In this document: positions 3,403 through 21,016 of the stretch, piece by piece
How positions within the stretch are numbered: position 1 is the first letter of the stretch
How the letters are laid out: every line of letters starts with the position of its first letter
Virus record (IMG/VR): IMGVR_UViG_3300032561_002127
Location: 1-37,596 of that record
Source: a virus
Direction: 5' to 3' (one strand)
DNA length: 37,596 bases
Notes under the pieces: generated by a model
Told to the model about the DNA's origin: nothing
The model's input: the letters and a program-made list of their open reading frames with translations, nothing else
The model's database searches: none
Translations under genes and position numbers: made by a program

Positions 3403-3978
3403 ATGACGCCCGAACGCGGACACCAGACGGCGATCCTTAACGCCCTGGCGGCGGGGGGATGCCTCACCTTGGACCAACTGGCGGACAGCCTGGAACTCGG
3501 GCGCCGCCAAATCTCCAGCGCCGCCGCCCGGCTGATCGACCGCGCCCTGGTGGTGCGGATCGAGGCGGGATGCTTCCGCGCCACCGCCGAGGGCGTGGAC
3601 GCCCAGGCCAGGGGGATCGAGATCAAGTCCGGCCCGCGCGGGCCGATGGAACGCAAGCGGCCGGCGCGGAATTCCTTTCGCGGCCGGCTGTGGCGGGGGA
3701 TGCGGCTGAAGCGAAAATTCTCGATCCCGGGCCTGCTGGAACTTGCGGCCAAGGGCGAGAAAAGCCCGGACACCGCCGCCGGCAGCTACATCCGGGCACT
3801 GGAGCGCGCCGGCTATCTGACCCGGCTGCCCCGGCGCGAGCCCGGTACCAGCCTTACCAGCAATGGATACCTGCGGTGGTCGCTGATCCGCGATACCGGC
3901 CCATTGCCGCCCATGCCGCGCCGCGACGGCACCGTGTTCGACCCGAATACCGGCGAGGTGATGCCATGTCGTGGCTGA
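3403..3978 (+). CDS. Winged-helix DNA-binding protein, early region
   Basis: This 191-residue protein has an N-terminal segment (residues 5-65) that reads as a winged helix: 'AILNALAAGGCLTLDQLADSL', then a recognition-like helix with 'RRQISSAAARLIDRAL', then a short strand pair. The middle is Arg-rich. Residues 105-155 look like a second winged-helix module ('GSYIRALERAGYLTRLPRREPG'). It starts one base after the MuB stop and overlaps the next gene by 13 bases, so it belongs to the early operon. A regulatory or DNA-processing accessory role is inferred. I do not recognise a named family with confidence. Confidence 0.85.
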   Translation: MTPERGHQTAILNALAAGGCLTLDQLADSLELGRRQISSAAARLIDRALVVRIEAGCFRATAEGVDAQARGIEIKSGPRGPMERKRPARNSFRGRLWRGMRLKRKFSIPGLLELAAKGEKSPDTAAGSYIRALERAGYLTRLPRREPGTSLTSNGYLRWSLIRDTGPLPPMPRRDGTVFDPNTGEVMPCRG

Positions 3979-4295
3979 TCCTGCTCGCCAACGATGTGGC
4001 GCGGACCGGCAGCAAGGCTGCCACCGCGCGCAAGATCGGCATATCCCGCACCGCCGTGTCGTTGGCCCTGTCGGGGAAATATCCGGCCGAGGATACCTCC
4101 CGGATCGAAGCCAAGGTGCTCGAAGCCCTGGCCGGCCGCGTGCCGTGCCCGCATGACCGCACCGATATCGCGCGGCGCGCCTGCTCGGACCGCGCCACCG
4201 CTCCCATGCCCATGTCCAACCCTGTCGAACTGCGGGCCTGGACGGCTTGCGGGGCCTGCCCCAACCGACCCAAGGAGGGAAGCCATGCTCAGTGA
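3966..4295 (+). CDS. Small helix-turn-helix protein with Cys-rich tail
   Basis: This 109-residue protein begins with a lambda/LacI-like helix-turn-helix at residues 1-45: 'GSKAATARKIGISRTAVSLALSG', where the second helix matches LacI-type DNA readers. The C-terminal half has three cysteines in 'CPHD', 'RACSD' and 'CGAC', possibly a small metal site. The start at 3966 overlaps the previous gene by 13 bases. The ATG at 3961 is in the other frame and encodes the tail of that gene. The next gene starts within this one's last codons. It could act as a transcription regulator of the early operon; no target is evident. Confidence 0.82.
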   Translation: MSWLILLANDVARTGSKAATARKIGISRTAVSLALSGKYPAEDTSRIEAKVLEALAGRVPCPHDRTDIARRACSDRATAPMPMSNPVELRAWTACGACPNRPKEGSHAQ

Positions 4296-4524
4296 CAACA
4301 TCGACACTCTGCGCCTTTGGCTGGAGAAATACCGGGTTACCGGCGTCGTGATGGAACCGCAGGCCATCGGAGAGATCTGCGACATCCTCACCGCCTGCGC
4401 CGAGGATGCCCGCCAGCTGGCCGGCGCCCCGTCCGTTGCCCTCCCCGAGAACGTGGTGAATTTCCCCACCGGCAGCCGCATGCGCCGCCCGGTCGGCACC
4501 TCTGGCGGGGGAGATGCGGCATGA
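4285..4524 (+). CDS. Hypothetical early protein, 79 residues
   Basis: This 79-residue protein has a near-perfect ribosome-binding site (AAGGAGGG at 4272-4279) six bases before its ATG. It overlaps the preceding gene by 11 bases. The N-terminal 50 residues are predicted helical ('IDTLRLWLEKYRVTGVVMEP'); the tail is Pro/Gly/Arg-rich and probably unstructured. There is no signal peptide, membrane span or recognisable motif. The strong start signal and overlaps on both sides support a real gene. Function unknown. Confidence 0.75.
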   Translation: MLSDNIDTLRLWLEKYRVTGVVMEPQAIGEICDILTACAEDARQLAGAPSVALPENVVNFPTGSRMRRPVGTSGGGDAA

Positions 4525-9018: not shown

Positions 9019-9618
9019 ATGACCGCCGATCTGTTCCCCTGGCCATGGTCCGACTATACCGATCTGGCCAAAGCCGCCGAGATGTTCGAGACCGACGAAT
9101 GGGCGGCCGAGTCCATCCTCGACGTGGAGCTATTGACGCCCGTGGTGTTCGATCCCTGCTGCGGCCGGGGTGTGCTTGCCGAGGCAGCCGCCCGTCGGGG
9201 CTACGGCGTCTATGCCATGGACCTCTATAATTGGGGCTATGCCGAAGGCGATCATGGCATCGACTTCCTGACCTGGTCACCGCCCGCCGGCATCGCCCAT
9301 CGCGAATTTTCGGTGTTGATGAACCCTCCGTTCTCCAAGGCTGTGGAATTCGTCCGCCGCTCGTTCGAACTGGGAGCGCGCAAGGTCGTCTGCTTCCAGC
9401 GCTTCGCCTGGTGGGAGTCGGAAGACCGAACCTCATTCTGGGCCGAGCTGCCCCCGGCCAGGATCTACGTCTGCCGGAACCGTGCCACATGCTGGCGCAT
9501 CGATATTCCGCCCGAGGCCCGCAAGAACGGTGCCTCTACCGCTCACGCATGGTTCGTCTGGGAACGTGGCCATCCGCCGGCCGCTGCCCTGTGGCATGTC
9601 AATCGGAGGAAGTCATGA
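9019..9618 (+). CDS. Small orphan DNA N6-adenine methyltransferase-like protein
   Basis: This 199-residue Rossmann-fold methyltransferase has a SAM-binding motif I at residues 43-54 ('VFDPCCGRGVLA') and the catalytic 'NPPF' motif at 102-105, typical of DNA amino-methyltransferases. It has no separate target-recognition domain and no neighbouring restriction endonuclease. It is therefore probably a stand-alone phage enzyme that marks phage DNA or acts during replication. The substrate is inferred from the NPPF motif; methylation of another nucleic acid cannot be excluded. The next gene (gemA) starts in an ATGA overlap. Confidence 0.88.
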   Translation: MTADLFPWPWSDYTDLAKAAEMFETDEWAAESILDVELLTPVVFDPCCGRGVLAEAAARRGYGVYAMDLYNWGYAEGDHGIDFLTWSPPAGIAHREFSVLMNPPFSKAVEFVRRSFELGARKVVCFQRFAWWESEDRTSFWAELPPARIYVCRNRATCWRIDIPPEARKNGASTAHAWFVWERGHPPAAALWHVNRRKS

Positions 9619-10051: not shown

Positions 10052-10561
10052 TCAGTGAGCCAGATTTTGGCCGGTCAGAATCACCTTATTGGCCCCGTCG
10101 CTCAGGGCGATGAACTTGGTGAGCATGCCACCCTGAGAATTGATGCCGTACTGAGTGGGAACGCCCCACGTCACATCGACGATTACATACCACTTGAGGG
10201 CGGGAAGATTGGCGAACGAAAAATTGCCTTGGGCGTCGCAAACCGAGCTTCGGCTGTATTTGTCTGCCTCGGGGGACCGGTTGCTGAAATTCACGGAACC
10301 GGGCCTCAAGATCTGGCCCATGATCTCCTGATTGTAGGCCGTTCCCGGCATCAGAAACACCTCCTGTCCGGCACAGGTCTTCACGTCTCCGCCGACGGTT
10401 TTCATGAATGCCTGTCCGGTGAGAAGGGCCGTTCCATCGGCCTGCCAAGGCGCGAAGTCCTTGTCCGAATAAGCCGTCGTCAACTGATAGTTCCGAGCGG
10501 TAACGCACCCCGTCATCAACACCATCATCATCGGGACGATCAAAAACATAACTCGGCGCAT
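10052..10561 (-). CDS. Minus-strand lipoprotein, probable lysogenic-conversion cargo gene
   Basis: This 169-residue protein has a lipoprotein signal: 'MRRV', a hydrophobic run, and a lipobox 'LMTGC' with the acylated Cys at residue 19. The mature part looks beta-rich. It has a carboxypeptidase-regulatory-like pattern: 'LTGQAFMKTVGGDVKTCAGQ', then 'DAQGNFSFANLPALKWYVIV'. On the minus strand the ATG follows AGGAAGGG by 6 bases. It is the only clear gene against the direction of the prophage, tail-to-tail with gemA and head-to-head with the activator, and looks less GC-rich than its neighbours. It is probably a surface lipoprotein expressed from its own promoter in the lysogen, for example altering the host envelope. 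Function is inferred. Confidence 0.88.
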   Translation of the reverse strand: MRRVMFLIVPMMMVLMTGCVTARNYQLTTAYSDKDFAPWQADGTALLTGQAFMKTVGGDVKTCAGQEVFLMPGTAYNQEIMGQILRPGSVNFSNRSPEADKYSRSSVCDAQGNFSFANLPALKWYVIVDVTWGVPTQYGINSQGGMLTKFIALSDGANKVILTGQNLAH

Positions 10562-10644: not shown

Positions 10645-11049
10645 ATGAGCGATCAGGCCGTCACCTCTCTCCAACTTCCCGGCATCCTCGGCGAACTGGC
10701 GCGGCGTGGCATGGGCGGTGCGGCGTTGGTCCTGGCGGATCGATGGGGAGGCACCAAGCGCTACATCTCGGACAAGCCGGGGAGCGTGCTTGTCGATCTC
10801 ATTGGCGTCCGTGCCGCCAAGGTGGTAGCGGAGATCTGCGGCGGCGGCTACCATGATATCCCTCGGGCGGGATCGCTGGACCACCTCAAAGCCAAGATCC
10901 TGGCCCATCCGGGCACGACCCGCGAAACCGCCGTGGCGCTGGGGTGCCACGAACGCTATGTTCGGATGGTGCGGTCGAGTGGGGTATCGGCACCGCCCGC
11001 GCGCCGCGCTCGCCCGGTCGATGAGCGACAGCTTGATCTCCTGACCTGA
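10645..11049 (+). CDS. mor: Mor/C-family middle/late transcription activator
   Basis: This 134-residue protein resembles the Mu Mor/C activators. The N-terminal dimerisation-like part contains 'ALVLADRWGGTKRYISDKPG', with the Gly-Gly turn and following strand typical of the family. It then shows 'VVAEICGGGYHDIPRAGS' and a C-terminal helix-turn-helix around 'TTRETAVALGCHERYVRMVR'. The ATG at 10645 is preferred; an open frame to 10579 would run back through the inverted repeats. Only one activator of this family is seen, so it may serve both Mor and C roles. A dyad-bearing candidate target lies just downstream, before the endolysin gene. Confidence 0.88.
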   Translation: MSDQAVTSLQLPGILGELARRGMGGAALVLADRWGGTKRYISDKPGSVLVDLIGVRAAKVVAEICGGGYHDIPRAGSLDHLKAKILAHPGTTRETAVALGCHERYVRMVRSSGVSAPPARRARPVDERQLDLLT

Positions 11050-11050
11050 C

Positions 11051-11100
11051 CGAAAGCGGAAGCTCTTCCGCGCGGCCCCCCCTCTCCTCCATGGATACCT
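11051..11100 (+). promoter_or_regulatory. Candidate late promoter before the lysis genes (Plys-like), with activator dyad
   Basis: A 16-base perfect dyad (GCGGAAG-CT-CTTCCGC) lies at 11056-11071. It is followed by GCGGCCCCCC and a pyrimidine-rich CTCCTCC stretch, then a weak -10-like 'GATACC' near 11094. A closely similar block of about 40 bases occurs at 19789-19830 before the protease gene. The dyad ends 62 bases before the endolysin GTG. In Mu, the C activator binds dyads upstream of Plys and PI, so this is the likely target of the Mor/C-like protein encoded immediately upstream. Confidence 0.6.
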
Positions 11101-11133
11101 TCGCCGAAGATCGCATCTTCGTGAGGGCGTCCC

Positions 11134-11619
11134 GTGTCCGATCAATCTCCTATCCCCGATATCGACGCCTGGGCGGCCGAACAGACCGACGCGGTGATCC
11201 TGGCGCTCACCCTGCTCGGCGAGGCGCGCGGCGAAGACCGCATCGGCCGCACCATGGTGGCCGACACCATCATGACCCGTGTCCAGATCGCCGTGGCCCA
11301 TCGCGCCCGCACCGGCGCGCCCTATTGGTGGGGGGAGACGCCCAAGGAAGTGTGCCTCAAGAGCTATCAGTACGACTGCTGGCTGCCGGGCGATCCCAAC
11401 CGCCTCAAACTTCCCGGCCTGACGCACGATCCGCTGTGGCCGGAAGCGCTGGAGATTGCCCAGGCCGCCGTGAGCGGCGCGGCGAAGGGGAGCGCCCATG
11501 AGGCCACCCATTACCTCAACCCGCATGCCGTCAAGCGCATGCCCGACTGGGCGATCCCCGCCAACCAGGTCGCGGCCCATCTGCATCATGTCTTCTACCA
11601 AGTGGTGCGGGCATCATGA
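11134..11619 (+). CDS. Endolysin, SleB-type cell wall hydrolase
   Basis: This 161-residue protein would cut host peptidoglycan at lysis. It has the SleB/hydrolase-2 signature: 'GEARGE' at residues 29-34, with the probable catalytic Glu30, an internal 'YDCWLPGDPNR' segment and the C-terminal 'HEATHYLNP' motif. There is no signal peptide, so it should need a holin for access. It starts with GTG after a GAGGG motif and sits directly downstream of the candidate late promoter. The lipase gene overlaps its end by 4 bases. Confidence 0.9.
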   Translation: MSDQSPIPDIDAWAAEQTDAVILALTLLGEARGEDRIGRTMVADTIMTRVQIAVAHRARTGAPYWWGETPKEVCLKSYQYDCWLPGDPNRLKLPGLTHDPLWPEALEIAQAAVSGAAKGSAHEATHYLNPHAVKRMPDWAIPANQVAAHLHHVFYQVVRAS

Positions 11620-12227
11620 TCGACCCGCGTCCCTATGCCGATCTGTGCCGACATGCCTATGACCACACCGACTTGGTGGTGGGCGAGGCCAAGGCGCTGA
11701 CCGCCTCGACCGCCGATGGTTTCGCGGTGGCCTTTCAGGGCACCCATGATGCGCGCCAGGCGCTGGACGATCTCGATATCCGGCCCCGTTTTCTCGCTGG
11801 CATCGGCTACGTCCACCACGGCTTCGCCGACCTGGCCGAGGCGGTCTATCCCGAGGTGTGCCGCGCCGTCACCGAGGCCGGACAGCCCACCATCCTGACC
11901 GGCCATTCGCTCGGAGCCGCCATCGCGCTGCTGGTCGGCGCCATGATGGTGCGGGACAAGCTGTCGCTGCTCACCGCCATCATCGGCTTCGGACCGCCTC
12001 GGGTGTCGGGCGGTCCGGCGGTCTCCCGCATGTTCAGTCGCGCCAAGCTGCCGGTGCCGCTCTATCGCCACGGTGCCGATGAGATTCCCGATCTGCCGCC
12101 GATCTTCTCCCCTGGCGCAGCCTTGATCCCAATCGGCACGCCGTCGCCGGGGCTGGATGGTGTCGAGGTCGATCACCGTATCGCCAGCTACATCGCCGCC
12201 CTCGACGCGGCGGGAGGGGCGTTGTGA
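11616..12227 (+). CDS. Class-3 lipase-like alpha/beta hydrolase in the lysis cassette
   Basis: This 203-residue protein has the lipase class-3 layout. The nucleophile elbow is 'GHSLG' at residues 96-100 with Ser98, the acid is probably Asp155 in 'HGADEIPDLPP', and the His is His187 in 'VDHRIASY'. An oxyanion-side 'AFQGTHDA' motif lies near residue 40. No signal peptide is seen. Lying between the endolysin and holin-like genes, it probably hydrolyses membrane or envelope lipids to help release virions, as LysB does for mycobacteriophages. The role is inferred from context; the fold and triad are visible. It overlaps both neighbours. Confidence 0.86.
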   Translation: MIDPRPYADLCRHAYDHTDLVVGEAKALTASTADGFAVAFQGTHDARQALDDLDIRPRFLAGIGYVHHGFADLAEAVYPEVCRAVTEAGQPTILTGHSLGAAIALLVGAMMVRDKLSLLTAIIGFGPPRVSGGPAVSRMFSRAKLPVPLYRHGADEIPDLPPIFSPGAALIPIGTPSPGLDGVEVDHRIASYIAALDAAGGAL

Positions 12228-16609: not shown

Positions 16610-18181
16610 TTGAGCGAAGACACCACTGGGCCACAGATGGGCAAGGTTCCACCCGCTCTGAGGCGCGAGGTCGCCGGCGCCGACCGCGACATCTTCCACC
16701 TGTTGTTCGCCCACACCATGCGTCCCCAGGACGAGATCCTGTTGACGCGCGGAGGCGGTCGCGGCCTCAAGATCTATGACGAGATCGCCCGCGATCCGCT
16801 GGTGGGGGCACTGCTGCGCAAGCGTTATGCGGCGGTGGTGGCGCGCACATGGGTGATTACGCCAGGGGGCACCGCGCGGGTTGACCGCAAGGCGGCCCAA
16901 CTGGTCGAGCGAGTGCTGAAGGGTGAGTGGGGCTTTCGGTACGACCGCATCTGCACCGAGCAGATGGATGCCACCCTCAAGGGCTATTCGGTGGGCGAGA
17001 CCATCTGGACGGTCTGCCCGGACAATTTCATCGTGCCGGCCGATGTCAAGCCCAAGGACCAGCGGCGCTTCGTGTTCGATGACGAGCAGCTGCTGCGGAT
17101 TCTGACCTTCGAGAACATGCTCCAAGGCGAGGAACTACCGCCGCGCAAGTTCCTGGTCCACCATTTCGGCGATAAGACCGGCGATCCCTATGGCCTCGGC
17201 CTCGGCAACACCCTGTTCTGGCCTTGCTTCTTCAAGCGCCAGGGCATCTCGTTCTGGCTGGCCTTCGCCGAGAAGTTCGGGTCTCCCACCGTGGTCGGCG
17301 AGTACCCCGAGGGGATGCTCGACAACGAACAGGACAAGCTGCTGAACGTGCTGGCCGGTATCGCCCAGCGGTCCGCCCTGGTGGTTCCCAACGGCACCAT
17401 CGTCAAACTGCTGGAGGCGACGCGGTCCGGTAACGTCAACACCTACGAAGATCTCTGCCGCTACATGGACGAGATGATCACGCTGGCCATCCTCGGCGAG
17501 ACGTTGACCTCCTCGATCCGGGGAGGCGGGTCGCGCGCCGCCTCGGAGACCCACAATGTGGTCCGCGAGGAGCTGGCCGATTCCGACTCCGATGTGCTCT
17601 GCGCCGGCCATACCGAGCAGTTGGTGGAGTGGATCGTCGCGCTGAATTACCCCGAGGCCCGGCGCCCGGTGCTGACACGGCCCCGCATGGCGCGCGAGGA
17701 AGAGGAGGCGGTGCGCGACCAGAAGAAGATCCAGGCCCGCCAGTTGGCCCTCACCTTCATCACCAGCGCTCGCCAGGCCGGCTGGGTTCCGGCCGATCCC
17801 ACCGCCGACATCATGCCGCAATGGAAGGGCGACTGGATCTATGTGGGGACGGCCAGCGGCCCGGCGCCGTTGGCGGTGGCCGTGGCGCCGCAGACCGAGC
17901 AGTCGGATAGCGAATTCGGCCAGGCGGAGCTGGGCGACACCACTCCACGCGATGGCGCCGACGATCTGTCCGATCAATTGGCTCAGGCGGCGATGCCGGC
18001 CATGGCTGATTTGATCGGTCAGATTCACAGCCTAATCAATTCCGCTACCAGCCTTGACGGGTTGGCGGCCGACCTGGTCCGGCTCTACCCCAAGATTGAT
18101 GACCGTGATCTGGCGTTGGCGATGTCGCAGGCGCTCCAGGTCGCGGAGTTGACCGGCCGATCCGAGATGGTCCATGGCTGA
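16610..18181 (+). CDS. Portal protein (DUF935, Mu gp29-like)
   Basis: This 523-residue protein matches DUF935 portal proteins of Mu-like phages. Visible family features are 'IARDPLVGALLRKRYAAVVA', a central 'HFGDKTGDPYGLGLGNTLFW' segment, and the clip/stem region around 'FAEKFGSPTVVGEYPEGM'. It forms the ring through which DNA enters and leaves the head. Translation likely starts at TTG 16610, after a GGAGG motif. It overlaps the head morphogenesis gene by 8 bases. Confidence 0.94.
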   Translation: MSEDTTGPQMGKVPPALRREVAGADRDIFHLLFAHTMRPQDEILLTRGGGRGLKIYDEIARDPLVGALLRKRYAAVVARTWVITPGGTARVDRKAAQLVERVLKGEWGFRYDRICTEQMDATLKGYSVGETIWTVCPDNFIVPADVKPKDQRRFVFDDEQLLRILTFENMLQGEELPPRKFLVHHFGDKTGDPYGLGLGNTLFWPCFFKRQGISFWLAFAEKFGSPTVVGEYPEGMLDNEQDKLLNVLAGIAQRSALVVPNGTIVKLLEATRSGNVNTYEDLCRYMDEMITLAILGETLTSSIRGGGSRAASETHNVVREELADSDSDVLCAGHTEQLVEWIVALNYPEARRPVLTRPRMAREEEEAVRDQKKIQARQLALTFITSARQAGWVPADPTADIMPQWKGDWIYVGTASGPAPLAVAVAPQTEQSDSEFGQAELGDTTPRDGADDLSDQLAQAAMPAMADLIGQIHSLINSATSLDGLAADLVRLYPKIDDRDLALAMSQALQVAELTGRSEMVHG

Positions 18182-19445
18182 TGCCGGCTTCGCGCTGCCG
18201 TTTCAGGAGGCCATCGACTTCCTGCGCGGTAAGCTCGACGTGCCCACCGCCTCGTGGACGGATATCCGCGAGGCCATGCATGCGCGGGCCTTCGTGGTGG
18301 CCGGCGCCATCAAATCCCAACTGATCGCCGACTTCCACGCGGCCATTAACGCCGCCATCGCCGAGGGACGCACCCTGGCGCAGTTCCGCCAGGACTTCGA
18401 CCGCATCGTCGCCGCCCATGGCTGGGACTATAACGGCTCGCGCAATTGGCGCTCGGCGGTCATCTACAACACCAACATGCGCATGGCGGTGGCGGCGGGA
18501 CGGTGGGCACAGGGCCTGCGCCTGGCGGCGGACGGCACCAAGGTCTATATCCGCTATACCGCCGTCCTCGACAGCCGCACCCGGCCGGCGCACCGGGAAT
18601 GGCACGGTGTGATCCTGCCGATGGATCACCCGTTCTGGGACACCCACTTTCCGCCGAATGGCTGGAACTGCCGCTGCTCGATCCAGTTCCTCACCGATCA
18701 CGACCTGGCGCGCTGGGGCTGGACGGTGACTTCGGCCGAGGATATCCCGGCCATCCTGTGGGAACAGCGTCCCTTGCAGACTCCCGATGGCACCGAGACG
18801 GTGAGCGTGCCCGAGGGCGTCGACACCGGATTCGGCTACAATGTCGGCAAGGCGGCCTGGGGACGCGGCGCCGACCGGGTGGCCATCGAAAAGCATGGCT
18901 CATGGACGGAGCTTGACGTGCCGGCAGGCTTGCGTCAGGTGGCAGAGCCTCTCGATCCCGTCGCGACGACGGTGACGGAAGGGCCGCGCGCCCCGGCCAT
19001 TCCCCCGGCGCCGACACTGCCGGGGATGCCGCCTGCGCCGGTGGTTGATCCTGATCGGCTTCGCGAATTGCTGCGACTGGCCATCGGCGGCGATGACGTC
19101 ACCTTTACCGATCCGTCCGGCGAGACCGTGTCGGTCTCGCAAGCCATCGTTGATCACATGCTGGAAAAACCCGGCCGCCAGGATGGCCGTGAAGCGTTTT
19201 TCCCGTTCATCCCGGATCTGGTCACCGACCCCCAGGAAATTTGGATCGGGTTCGCCGCATCCGACGAATCGGGACGAGTATCCTTGCGGCGCCGCTATGT
19301 GCAGTACCTGCAATTGGGCAAGGACCGGGTACTTGGCCTCGTCGCCGACGCCGATGGCAACCGCTGGAGCGGCCTGACCTTCTTGCGCGGCGGACAATCG
19401 GCGTTCGGCAATCTGCGTAGCGGGCTTCGCATCTACCGGAAATGA
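18174..19445 (+). CDS. Head morphogenesis protein (Mu gpF-like) fused to a PBECR2-like nuclease domain
   Basis: This 423-residue protein has an N-terminal SPP1 gp7/Mu F-type domain (about 40-185). Its signatures include 'YNTNMRMAVAAGRWAQ', 'DSRTRPAHREWHGVILP' and the family ending 'FPPNGWNCRCSIQF'. After a Pro-rich linker (about 260-295), a separate C-terminal domain (about 335-423) carries 'FFPFIPDLVTDPQEIWIGFA', 'RRRYVQYLQ' and a final 'FGNLRSGLRIYRK'. That pattern resembles the PBECR2 branch of barnase/EndoU/colicin-like phage nucleases. Such fusions are thought to place a toxin or processing domain inside the head. The fold of the C-terminal part is recalled, not searched. Confidence 0.9.
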   Translation: MADAGFALPFQEAIDFLRGKLDVPTASWTDIREAMHARAFVVAGAIKSQLIADFHAAINAAIAEGRTLAQFRQDFDRIVAAHGWDYNGSRNWRSAVIYNTNMRMAVAAGRWAQGLRLAADGTKVYIRYTAVLDSRTRPAHREWHGVILPMDHPFWDTHFPPNGWNCRCSIQFLTDHDLARWGWTVTSAEDIPAILWEQRPLQTPDGTETVSVPEGVDTGFGYNVGKAAWGRGADRVAIEKHGSWTELDVPAGLRQVAEPLDPVATTVTEGPRAPAIPPAPTLPGMPPAPVVDPDRLRELLRLAIGGDDVTFTDPSGETVSVSQAIVDHMLEKPGRQDGREAFFPFIPDLVTDPQEIWIGFAASDESGRVSLRRRYVQYLQLGKDRVLGLVADADGNRWSGLTFLRGGQSAFGNLRSGLRIYRK

Positions 19446-19873
19446 TGAGGATGTGACTATGGTCAGCGCCCCGGCCACGTCGCCCACCGGCTGGAATTGA
19501 GGGGCGCCCCACCAGACGGCTGCAAGGGCCAGTATAGCACCGCCGGGCCAGCGGCGGAAGGGGCGCCGGGAAACCGCCCTGGCAGCCCAGGGATGCCTCG
19601 CATGGGGCGATGGCGCGGCCCACCCCGAACCCATGCGTTAGCCCCCCGTTAGCGGAGCAATCCGGGGCATGCATGAGGCAGGGCGGCCGAGGCTCTTGCG
19701 TCCGGGACCGGTAGCCGGCAGGATGGTGGGGCGCAACGGCCATCGGCCACAGCATCCCGGCGCGCCCCTCCCTCAACATCGACGACCGGCGAAGCGGAAG
19801 CTGTTCCGCGCGGCCCCCATCTCCTCACGACGCCAATATCGCCTCGACCCCCATGCCTGAGGAGACGAGGTCC
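19446..19873 (+). other. Long non-coding gap near the centre of the prophage
   Basis: These 428 bases are the only long gap in a genome whose genes otherwise overlap or abut. The first 55 bases hold a possible 13-codon reading frame (19459-19500). The middle is GC-rich with a 10-base palindrome GGGGCGCCCC (19501-19510), a 7-base direct repeat CGTTAGC (19636-19642 and 19647-19653) and several weak hairpins, but no convincing gene or T-tailed terminator. The right end carries the late-promoter dyad. In Mu the strong gyrase site lies at the genome centre just before gene I, the equivalent position. Confidence 0.6.
19789..19840 (+). promoter_or_regulatory. Candidate late promoter before the protease gene (PI-like), second dyad copy
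   Basis: The dyad GCGGAA-GCTG-TTCCGC lies at 19794-19809. It sits in a block that shares nearly every base with the copy at 11053-11090, including the following GCGGCCCCC and CTCCTC. A -10-like CAATAT occurs at 19834-19839. The dyad ends 64 bases before the protease GTG. Two copies with the same spacing, before the two gene blocks that Mu drives from C-dependent Plys and PI, support a shared activator site. Confidence 0.6.
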
Positions 19874-21016
19874 GTGCCAACAGCCGCGCCGAAGAAGATC
19901 GAGATCTTCCGCTCCGGGACGTTCACGACCCGGGCCGGGGAGGAGATCACCTTTACCGATGCCGATCTGGCAGCCGTGGCCACCGCTTATGATCCGGCGG
20001 TTCACGAGGCGCCCTTGGTGGCGGGCCATCCCAAGCATGACGATCCCGCCCAAGGTTGGGTCAAACGCCTTGAGTTCACCGATGGCCGGCTGTTGGCGGA
20101 GGTCGATCAGGTCAGCCCCGCCTTCTCGGCCGCCGTGGGGAAGGGCGAGTACAAGCACGTTTCGGCCGCCTTCTATCCCCCCGCGTCCAAGGCCAATCCC
20201 AAGCGTGGAGGCTACTATCTGCGCCATGTCGGCTGCCTGGGCGCCATGCCCCCCGCCGTTTCCGGCCTCAAGCCGCTTTCCTTCGCCGCCGGCGACGACG
20301 ATTTCGTCGAGTTCGGCCAGGGCGATCTGCCGCTCGGGTCGGTCCTGAGGACCTTGCGCGAGTTCTTCATCGCCAAGTTCGGCCTCGCCGATGCCGACCA
20401 GGCGCTCCCCAGCTACATCGTCTCGTGGGCGGAAGACGACGACCGCGAGCCGGACGGCGATGATTCCGTCGCCACCGCTTCTCCCGCTTTTTCCCAAGAC
20501 CCGAAAGGAACCGTGATGGCCGATAAAGCCACCGACCAGGACGTGGATGCGCGCCTCCGCGATATCGAAGCCCGTGAGGCCAAGCTCAAGGAGCGGGAGG
20601 TCACCTTCTCCCAACAGGAGCGCGCGCAAGGACGGCGCGACAATGAGATGTTTCTCGACGGCCTGGTCAAGCTGGGCAAGTTCCTGCCGGCTCAGAAGGA
20701 CAACACCCTGGCCTTCATGGAAAGCCTTGCCGACCAGACCCAAGTGATCGAGTTCGCCGAGAGTGACGGCAAGAAAGCCCAGGTCAAGCCGCTCGATGCC
20801 TATAAGCGTCAGCTCGCCGCCGCGCCGAAGATGGTGGAGTTCGGCGAATTGGCGCCCGGCGATGGCGTCAGCACCGCCTCCATCGAGTTCTCGGCCCCTC
20901 CCGGCGCCATCGTCGATCCCGAGCGCCTGCGGCTCCACGGTCAGGCGCTCCAGTATCAGCGCCAGCACCCCGACACGACCTACATCAACGCCGTCAAGGC
21001 CGTAAACAAGGAGTAA
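19874..21016 (+). CDS. I: Prohead protease with scaffold domain (Mu gpI-like)
   Basis: This 380-residue protein matches the Mu I family: an N-terminal serine-type prohead protease followed by a scaffold. The N-terminal region has 'FRSGTFTTRAGEEITFTDAD', 'EAPLVAGHPKHDDPAQGWVK' (probable catalytic His region) and 'YKHVSAAFYPPASKANPKRG' (probable Ser region). The last 165 residues are charged and helical. GTG 19874 is chosen because GGAGACGAGG precedes it; the in-frame ATG at 19853 has no ribosome-binding site. The protein would guide capsid assembly and then be degraded. Confidence 0.92.
   Translation: MPTAAPKKIEIFRSGTFTTRAGEEITFTDADLAAVATAYDPAVHEAPLVAGHPKHDDPAQGWVKRLEFTDGRLLAEVDQVSPAFSAAVGKGEYKHVSAAFYPPASKANPKRGGYYLRHVGCLGAMPPAVSGLKPLSFAAGDDDFVEFGQGDLPLGSVLRTLREFFIAKFGLADADQALPSYIVSWAEDDDREPDGDDSVATASPAFSQDPKGTVMADKATDQDVDARLRDIEAREAKLKEREVTFSQQERAQGRRDNEMFLDGLVKLGKFLPAQKDNTLAFMESLADQTQVIEFAESDGKKAQVKPLDAYKRQLAAAPKMVEFGELAPGDGVSTASIEFSAPPGAIVDPERLRLHGQALQYQRQHPDTTYINAVKAVNKE
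20516..21016 (+). CDS. Z: Internal in-frame scaffold protein (Mu Z-like)
   Basis: Inside the protease gene, in the same frame, an ATG at 20516 follows GAAAGGAACCGTG, a good ribosome-binding site. Translation from there gives a 166-residue scaffold starting 'MADKATDQDVDARLRDIEAR', with a strongly charged coiled coil. Mu makes its scaffold Z in just this way from within I. The protease-scaffold fusion and free scaffold would share C-terminal capsid-binding residues. Confidence 0.72.
   Translation: MADKATDQDVDARLRDIEAREAKLKEREVTFSQQERAQGRRDNEMFLDGLVKLGKFLPAQKDNTLAFMESLADQTQVIEFAESDGKKAQVKPLDAYKRQLAAAPKMVEFGELAPGDGVSTASIEFSAPPGAIVDPERLRLHGQALQYQRQHPDTTYINAVKAVNKE

Follow-up and report, generated by a model that had tools for sequence, protein, structure and literature searches.

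In the Mu-like phage genome analyzed here, a short block of sequence stands almost unchanged in front of both the endolysin gene and the head maturation protease gene, which raises the question of whether the two copies are sites through which one phage-encoded activator serves two late promoters. The window, meaning the whole stretch of DNA analyzed (37,596 nucleotides; IMG/VR record IMGVR_UViG_3300032561_002127), is that of a Mu-like transposable phage and encodes Mu portal and F-like proteins, scaffold and capsid, as well as GemA, a Mu-type transposase, a Mu I-like protease and a cell wall hydrolase. Four of its genes frame the two copies.

10645 to 11049, plus strand: putative late activator gene, Mor/C-like, with a C-terminal helix-turn-helix (HTH; ...ALGCHERYVRMVR...); phrog_836, E = 2e-9
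11134 to 11619, plus strand: endolysin (cell wall hydrolase) gene with a GTG start; Pfam Hydrolase_2, E = 4e-9; phrog_938 endolysin
18174 to 19445: Mu-F-like gene, the 5' neighbor of the second copy and the protease gene
19874 to 21016, plus strand: head maturation protease gene (Mu I-like); phrog_976, E = 1e-112

The late lys operon begins with the endolysin gene. The protease also matched Pfam Mu-like_Pro with an E value of 2e-4, under the cut-off; an alternative ATG is present at 19853, and the Shine-Dalgarno (SD) sequence is better for the GTG at 19874.

When the 25-bp string GCGGAAGCTSTTCCGCGCGGCCCCC was searched with up to three mismatches allowed, exactly two matches were found in the window, at 11056-11080 and 19794-19818, both on the plus strand, and none in 100 dinucleotide shuffles of the window. 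Each match is composed of GCGGAAGCT, then C or G, then TTCCGC and finally GCGGCCCCC, and the C/G base is the sole difference between the copies, in agreement with the near-identical repeat reported in the initial annotation.

11056 to 11071, plus strand: candidate operator for lys transcription, dyad GCGGAAGCTCTTCCGC; kept in relatives; predicted to lie at -52 to -37
11072 to 11080, plus strand: GCGGCCCCC block 3' of the dyad, where the -35 is missing; same in both copies
19794 to 19809, plus strand: candidate operator for protease (I) transcription, dyad GCGGAAGCTGTTCCGC; kept in L003/L095 at 9904/18520
19810 to 19818, plus strand: GCGGCCCCC block of copy 2; same in both copies

In both dyads, the arms GCGGAA and TTCCGC surround a 4-bp center. 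The first copy starts 7 bp past the stop codon of the activator gene and the second lies between the Mu-F-like gene and the protease GTG, so that both are intergenic, as had been stated. The distance from the end of the dyad to the GTG is 62 bp for the lysin (11072-11133) and 64 bp for the protease (19810-19873), matching the values given earlier. The stretch originally delimited, 19789-19840, does take in the second dyad and ends just past the -10 described below, but the functional unit continues to the start codon. When the dyad core alone was searched with three mismatches allowed, it showed no enrichment in the window; the claim therefore depends on the two full copies. A third copy in the window was rejected, since the only other sites supported by a -10 were intragenic one-mismatch and weaker matches at chance level.

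The product of the gene at 10645-11049 is, judged by sequence, a divergent Mor/C-like activator. Its residues 11-132 aligned with positions 12-131 of the 133 positions of phrog_836 ("late transcriptional activator"), which Mu Mor and C likewise match with their C-terminal part (E = 1e-10 and 2e-11, respectively). The window protein did not reach the cut-off of Pfam Mor (PF08765), and the assignment therefore follows from the phrog_836 match and from intermediates that pass Pfam rather than from the protein's own Pfam score. Two members of the same alignment exceeded the cut-off of 24.9 (L104 with 30.0 bits and L106 with 28.8), as did the homologs from Rhizobium phage RR1-B and Rhodobacter phage RcWaterboi. 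Direct comparison of the activator family with Mu Mor by hhalign gave a match of only 28 columns (P = 1e-4), with a weaker one to C. A Foldseek search of the PDB with an AlphaFold model of the activator (pLDDT 73) returned weak HTH matches only, none significant and Mor not among them, and a PDB sequence search with the activator profile returned nothing credible. A BLAST search with the activator found no match in phage records, and homologs were therefore taken from IMG/VR, GTDB genomes and profile searches. Matches to this branch of activators occurred in 50 of 317 genomes of one order. Across all window ORFs, hmmsearch found one copy of an activator of this kind and no second.

Activator homologs were traced in IMG/VR, GTDB genomes and named phages. 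The initial annotation had pointed to close relatives as the place where the block might prove not to be conserved, and the opposite was found. The closest relative (L003/L095, one contig), with a protease 67% identical to that of the window, has kept both copies, with the same GCGGAA/TTCCGC arms and downstream GCGGaCCC and with the four central bases changed. More widely, an inverted repeat of the same design was found to follow the activator gene; in loci for which the protease region was also available, one usually precedes the protease as well. Such dyads of varying sequence precede lys and/or I in many more distant phages with homologous activators (29-84% identical), including RR1-B and RcWaterboi. 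The form GCGGAA-N3/4-TTCCGC is found in the clade of the window and one neighboring clade, CCGGAA-N3-5-TTCCGG in other lineages, CCGGA-N6-TCCGG in RcWaterboi, and CCTGAA/TTCAGG arms in still more distant phages. At many distant activator loci, a simple search found no such dyad.

To locate promoter elements, 21 sixteen-bp dyads from across the activator family were aligned. Downstream of them, an A at offset 25 (16/21) and a T at offset 29 (17/21) are conserved, four bases apart, and to judge from the alignment this pair corresponds to positions -11 (A) and -7 (T) within a -10 hexamer. The corresponding signature NANNNT lies exactly 24 bp past the dyad in 16 of the 21 and at 23-25 bp in all of them; in 20,000 shuffled sets the best offset reached a maximum of 6, figures that overstate independence because the family sites share descent. 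The first base after the dyad is G in 19/21, and the -35 position of the window promoters holds only GCGG-rich sequence, leaving a recognizable -10 without a good -35.

11096 to 11101, plus strand: predicted -10 hexamer TACCTT (lys), 24 bp past the dyad
11108, plus strand: predicted transcription start +1 (A), lys, 7 nt past the -10
19834 to 19839, plus strand: predicted -10 hexamer CAATAT (I), 24 bp past the dyad
19846, plus strand: predicted transcription start +1 (G), I, 7 nt past the -10

With the -10 at 24 bp, the dyad is placed at about -52 to -37, very close to the experimentally determined position of the Mor site at Mu Pm. There, the 16-bp dyad bound by Mor extends from -51 to -36, and the promoter combines the lack of a -35 with an activator dimer upstream of RNA polymerase (PMC4287176), an arrangement that the window dyad shares by prediction. 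The -10 at fixed spacing was not part of the initial annotation and is the decisive addition of the present analysis.

As a check independent of the activator, IMG/VR was searched at the DNA level for the exact window dyad, which gave 82 stretches. Five of these contain a Mor-like gene, among them one nearly identical to the window with a 100% identical activator (L038), and in four of the five NANNNT follows the dyad by 23-24 bp. In one of these four (L031), the dyad and NANNNT lie directly 5' of a protease-like start, recognized by eye. Most of the 82 exact dyads, in stretches where no Mor-like gene was detected, look like chance occurrences.

Given the fixed -10 spacing, the Mor-like position of the dyad, its conservation and the homologous activator, the two copies are very probably operators of the phage's single Mor/C-like activator and serve two late promoters, the role for which they had originally been proposed. 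The activator, made in the early/middle phase, would dimerize and bind both 16-bp dyads, centered near -44.5, and the bound dimer would help the host sigma-70 RNA polymerase to start, with a -10 located 24 bp downstream and no recognizable -35. Transcription of the lysis/packaging genes would then come from the promoter with +1 at about 11108, and that of the genes for protease, capsid and tail from the promoter with +1 at about 19846.

Two other readings of the dyad were weighed. As an RNA element, it would be an intrinsic terminator or processing hairpin that ends the upstream operon; a terminator-like T-run does follow the dyad in RR1-B, RcWaterboi and L126, but in the window and close relatives the dyad is followed by GCGG-CCC rather than T, each arm has only 6 bp, and a terminator would not need a fixed distance to a -10. 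This reading is highly improbable, and the dyads with T-runs, which keep the 23-24 bp spacing, may serve both purposes. Very little credence can be given to binding by a different factor, such as a host regulator or a transposition or packaging protein, in place of the adjacent activator. It is true that the binding protein is named solely from gene position and family; against this, the dyads, traced via the activator gene, sit just behind it and before I, their arms vary by lineage (GCGGAA, CCGGAA, CCTGAA) in a way that fits a co-evolving operator, and sites of the Mu end or enhancer type would not be expected upstream of both lys and I with constant spacing to a -10.

With the dyads taken as activator operators, the layout of the window is the two-promoter counterpart of Mu Plys and PI. 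The initial annotation had likened the sites to these C-dependent promoters, and the comparison held for both genes and places. With Mu Plys and PI (also Pmom and PP), the window promoters have in common the lysis and protease genes and the absence of a -35, and the placement is the same, one site following the activator gene and the other separating I from the F/G region. In the Mu record, ATAA, which we take to be the right half-site of C, was located by eye 24 bp upstream of TAGACT at lys, of CAAACT at I and of TAAGAT at mom. The sequence of the Mu C operator, however, is unrelated to GCGGAA-N4-TTCCGC. Furthermore, a single activator was found in the window as opposed to the Mor-to-C cascade of Mu; Mor drives middle transcription including that of C, whereas the window activator appears to act directly on the late operons. 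Two late promoters were found in the window, compared with four in Mu. RR1-B (L091) has four dyads, equal to the number of Mu late promoters, at 4453, 11917, 18994 and 24031, standing before lys, the protease gene, the tape measure gene and a baseplate gene. Its lys and protease dyads are followed by a T-run and are terminator-like as well as operator-like.

Downstream of the operators, the two leaders can be folded into hairpins that reach back across the predicted +1.

11098 to 11127, plus strand: lys leader hairpin, CCUUCGC/CGAAGAU...AUCUUCGUGAGGG; 5' arm starts within the -10
19841 to 19871, plus strand: I leader hairpin, GCCUCG...CGAGGU; encloses the SD GAGGAG (19859-19864)

The 3' arm of the lys hairpin contains the SD GAGGG (11123-11127). 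With the -10 region included, as in RNA started upstream, the lys leader folded at -15.0 kcal/mol, versus -5.3 kcal/mol from +1, and the I leader at -11.3 versus -4.8 kcal/mol; the z score of the window lys hairpin was -2.9 against dinucleotide shuffles. The predicted probability of a free SD was 0.00 for lys in the upstream transcript and, for I, 0.01 in read-through RNA versus 0.68 from +1. In nearly all leaders examined, a hairpin spans from the -10/+1 region to the SD. The mean z score of 29 leaders was -2.9 (dinucleotide shuffles), and the 40 nt 5' of the start codon had a lower minimum free energy than at 184 other gene starts (p = 2e-5). Eight further distant loci, chosen by dyad and -10 alone, gave z scores of -3.2 to -5.7 in seven cases and -1.5 in one (mononucleotide shuffles). 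The arms differ strongly between loci (CCCUCG/CGAGGG, GCCCCACG/CGUGGGGC, CCCCUCAGG/CCUGAGGGG, CUCCGAACCG/CGGUUCGGAG), indicating that base pairing has been favored over conserved sequence. A search of Rfam gave no match.

Family-mean SD accessibility was predicted to be 0.13 in read-through RNA, as against 0.37 for RNA started at +1 and 0.29 for shuffled leaders. With shuffling confined to the part 5' of +1, SD pairing was individually significant in 3/26 leaders, while in 20/26 under half of the shuffles reached the native pairing. SD occlusion thus arises partly from a C-rich promoter facing a G-rich SD. The hairpin as a structure, and the stem overall, is well supported, the specific part played by the segment before +1 less so.

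As to function, RNA started upstream, in the early region or the previous operon, would carry the full hairpin with its SD hidden and be poorly translated, whereas RNA from the late promoter would begin inside the 5' arm, without most of that arm, and so be translated. The chances that starting inside an SD-sequestering hairpin provides such a second layer of control, keeping read-through RNA poorly translated, seem about even. At the I promoter this would be less obviously useful, since transcription upstream of it is late already. In the gene e (lysozyme) leader of T4, according to PMC3014915, citing McPheeters 1986, a hairpin hides the SD in long upstream transcripts, and late transcripts, beginning within the stretch that specifies its 5' strand, are translated. 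The window leaders resemble the gene e leader in the predicted SD-hiding hairpin of upstream transcripts, and the start predicted from the -10 would likewise fall within the 5' strand. T4 employs a virus-specific late promoter and sigma; in the window, the promoter is of the Mor type, part of the 5' arm comes from its own -10, and the arrangement is present a second time at the protease promoter.

The hairpin could instead serve chiefly to stop read-through transcription as an intrinsic terminator, SD occlusion being a by-product. A run of four or five T's does follow it, just 5' of the start codon, in L097, L098, L107, L108, L109 and L117, and in some relatives a hairpin ending in such a run may terminate read-through; since the hairpin is kept without a T-run in the window, L095, L096 and L099, we regard termination as its main role as unlikely. 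Alternatively, with a start upstream of the predicted +1, the late mRNA itself would carry the hairpin, to be opened by a Com-like translational activator or to protect the 5' end. The +1 is a prediction, and Mu mom offers a precedent, in which a stem hides the SD and Com acts as translational activator. Nevertheless, the conserved A/T of the -10 at fixed spacing places +1 within the 5' arm, and no Com-like gene was among the matches of the subset of window ORFs searched, making this improbable.

Returning to a start inside the hairpin, we consider it slightly short of an even prospect that late promoters of the Mor family in general encode a hairpin arm in their -10/+1 region, such that lysis and head genes are translated solely from activator-started RNA, a feature that compensating changes would have preserved in many lineages and that Mu may share at lys and I. 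In Mu (L164), hairpins at 1945-1987 (lys) and 9519-9560 (I) lie across the predicted +1 and are absent in RNA from +1; the lys start codon is within the stem, and the I stem adjoins the SD. In a single fold, the Mu lys and I leaders gave -13.9 and -16.3 versus -3.1, but a longer lys stretch folds differently, no hairpin spans +1 in the com leader and the position of the P promoter could not be established, so that a Mu leader hairpin is only a suggestion.

Activator-dependent late promoters of Mu-like phages are a known kind. The open literature searched contained no description of these operators or leaders, and to that extent the leader with a start inside the hairpin in particular, but also the operator and the layout with two promoters, appear to be undescribed. 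The operator sequence and promoter geometry are provided here for a widespread, apparently uncharacterized branch of Mor-like activators, and they make it possible to locate the late operons of transposable phages from sequence. If translation is indeed silenced by the leader, Mu-like and T4-like phages would have arrived at the same way of holding back their lysis genes until the late stage, and a level of regulation so far overlooked would be predicted in Mu's own lys and I leaders.

Several further features were observed. The Mu F-like head protein encoded at 18174-19445 has a C-terminal PBECR2 domain (Pfam, E = 7e-21), a Barnase/EndoU/ColicinE5/RelE-like nuclease fold, and is possibly a nuclease delivered or assembled with the head. 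The second gene of the lysis operon (11616-12227), adjoining the cell wall hydrolase, is esterase/lipase-like (phrog_21992, E = 2e-29). Between GemA and the activator, the minus-strand gene at 10052-10561 belongs to phrog_14789, of unknown function, and has a lipoprotein-like start; a similar minus-strand lipoprotein-like ORF lies immediately upstream of the activator in L095 (9498-9905). In L098, tandem operator-like dyads 63 bp apart are present behind the activator gene (3954-4031), with another at 11095.
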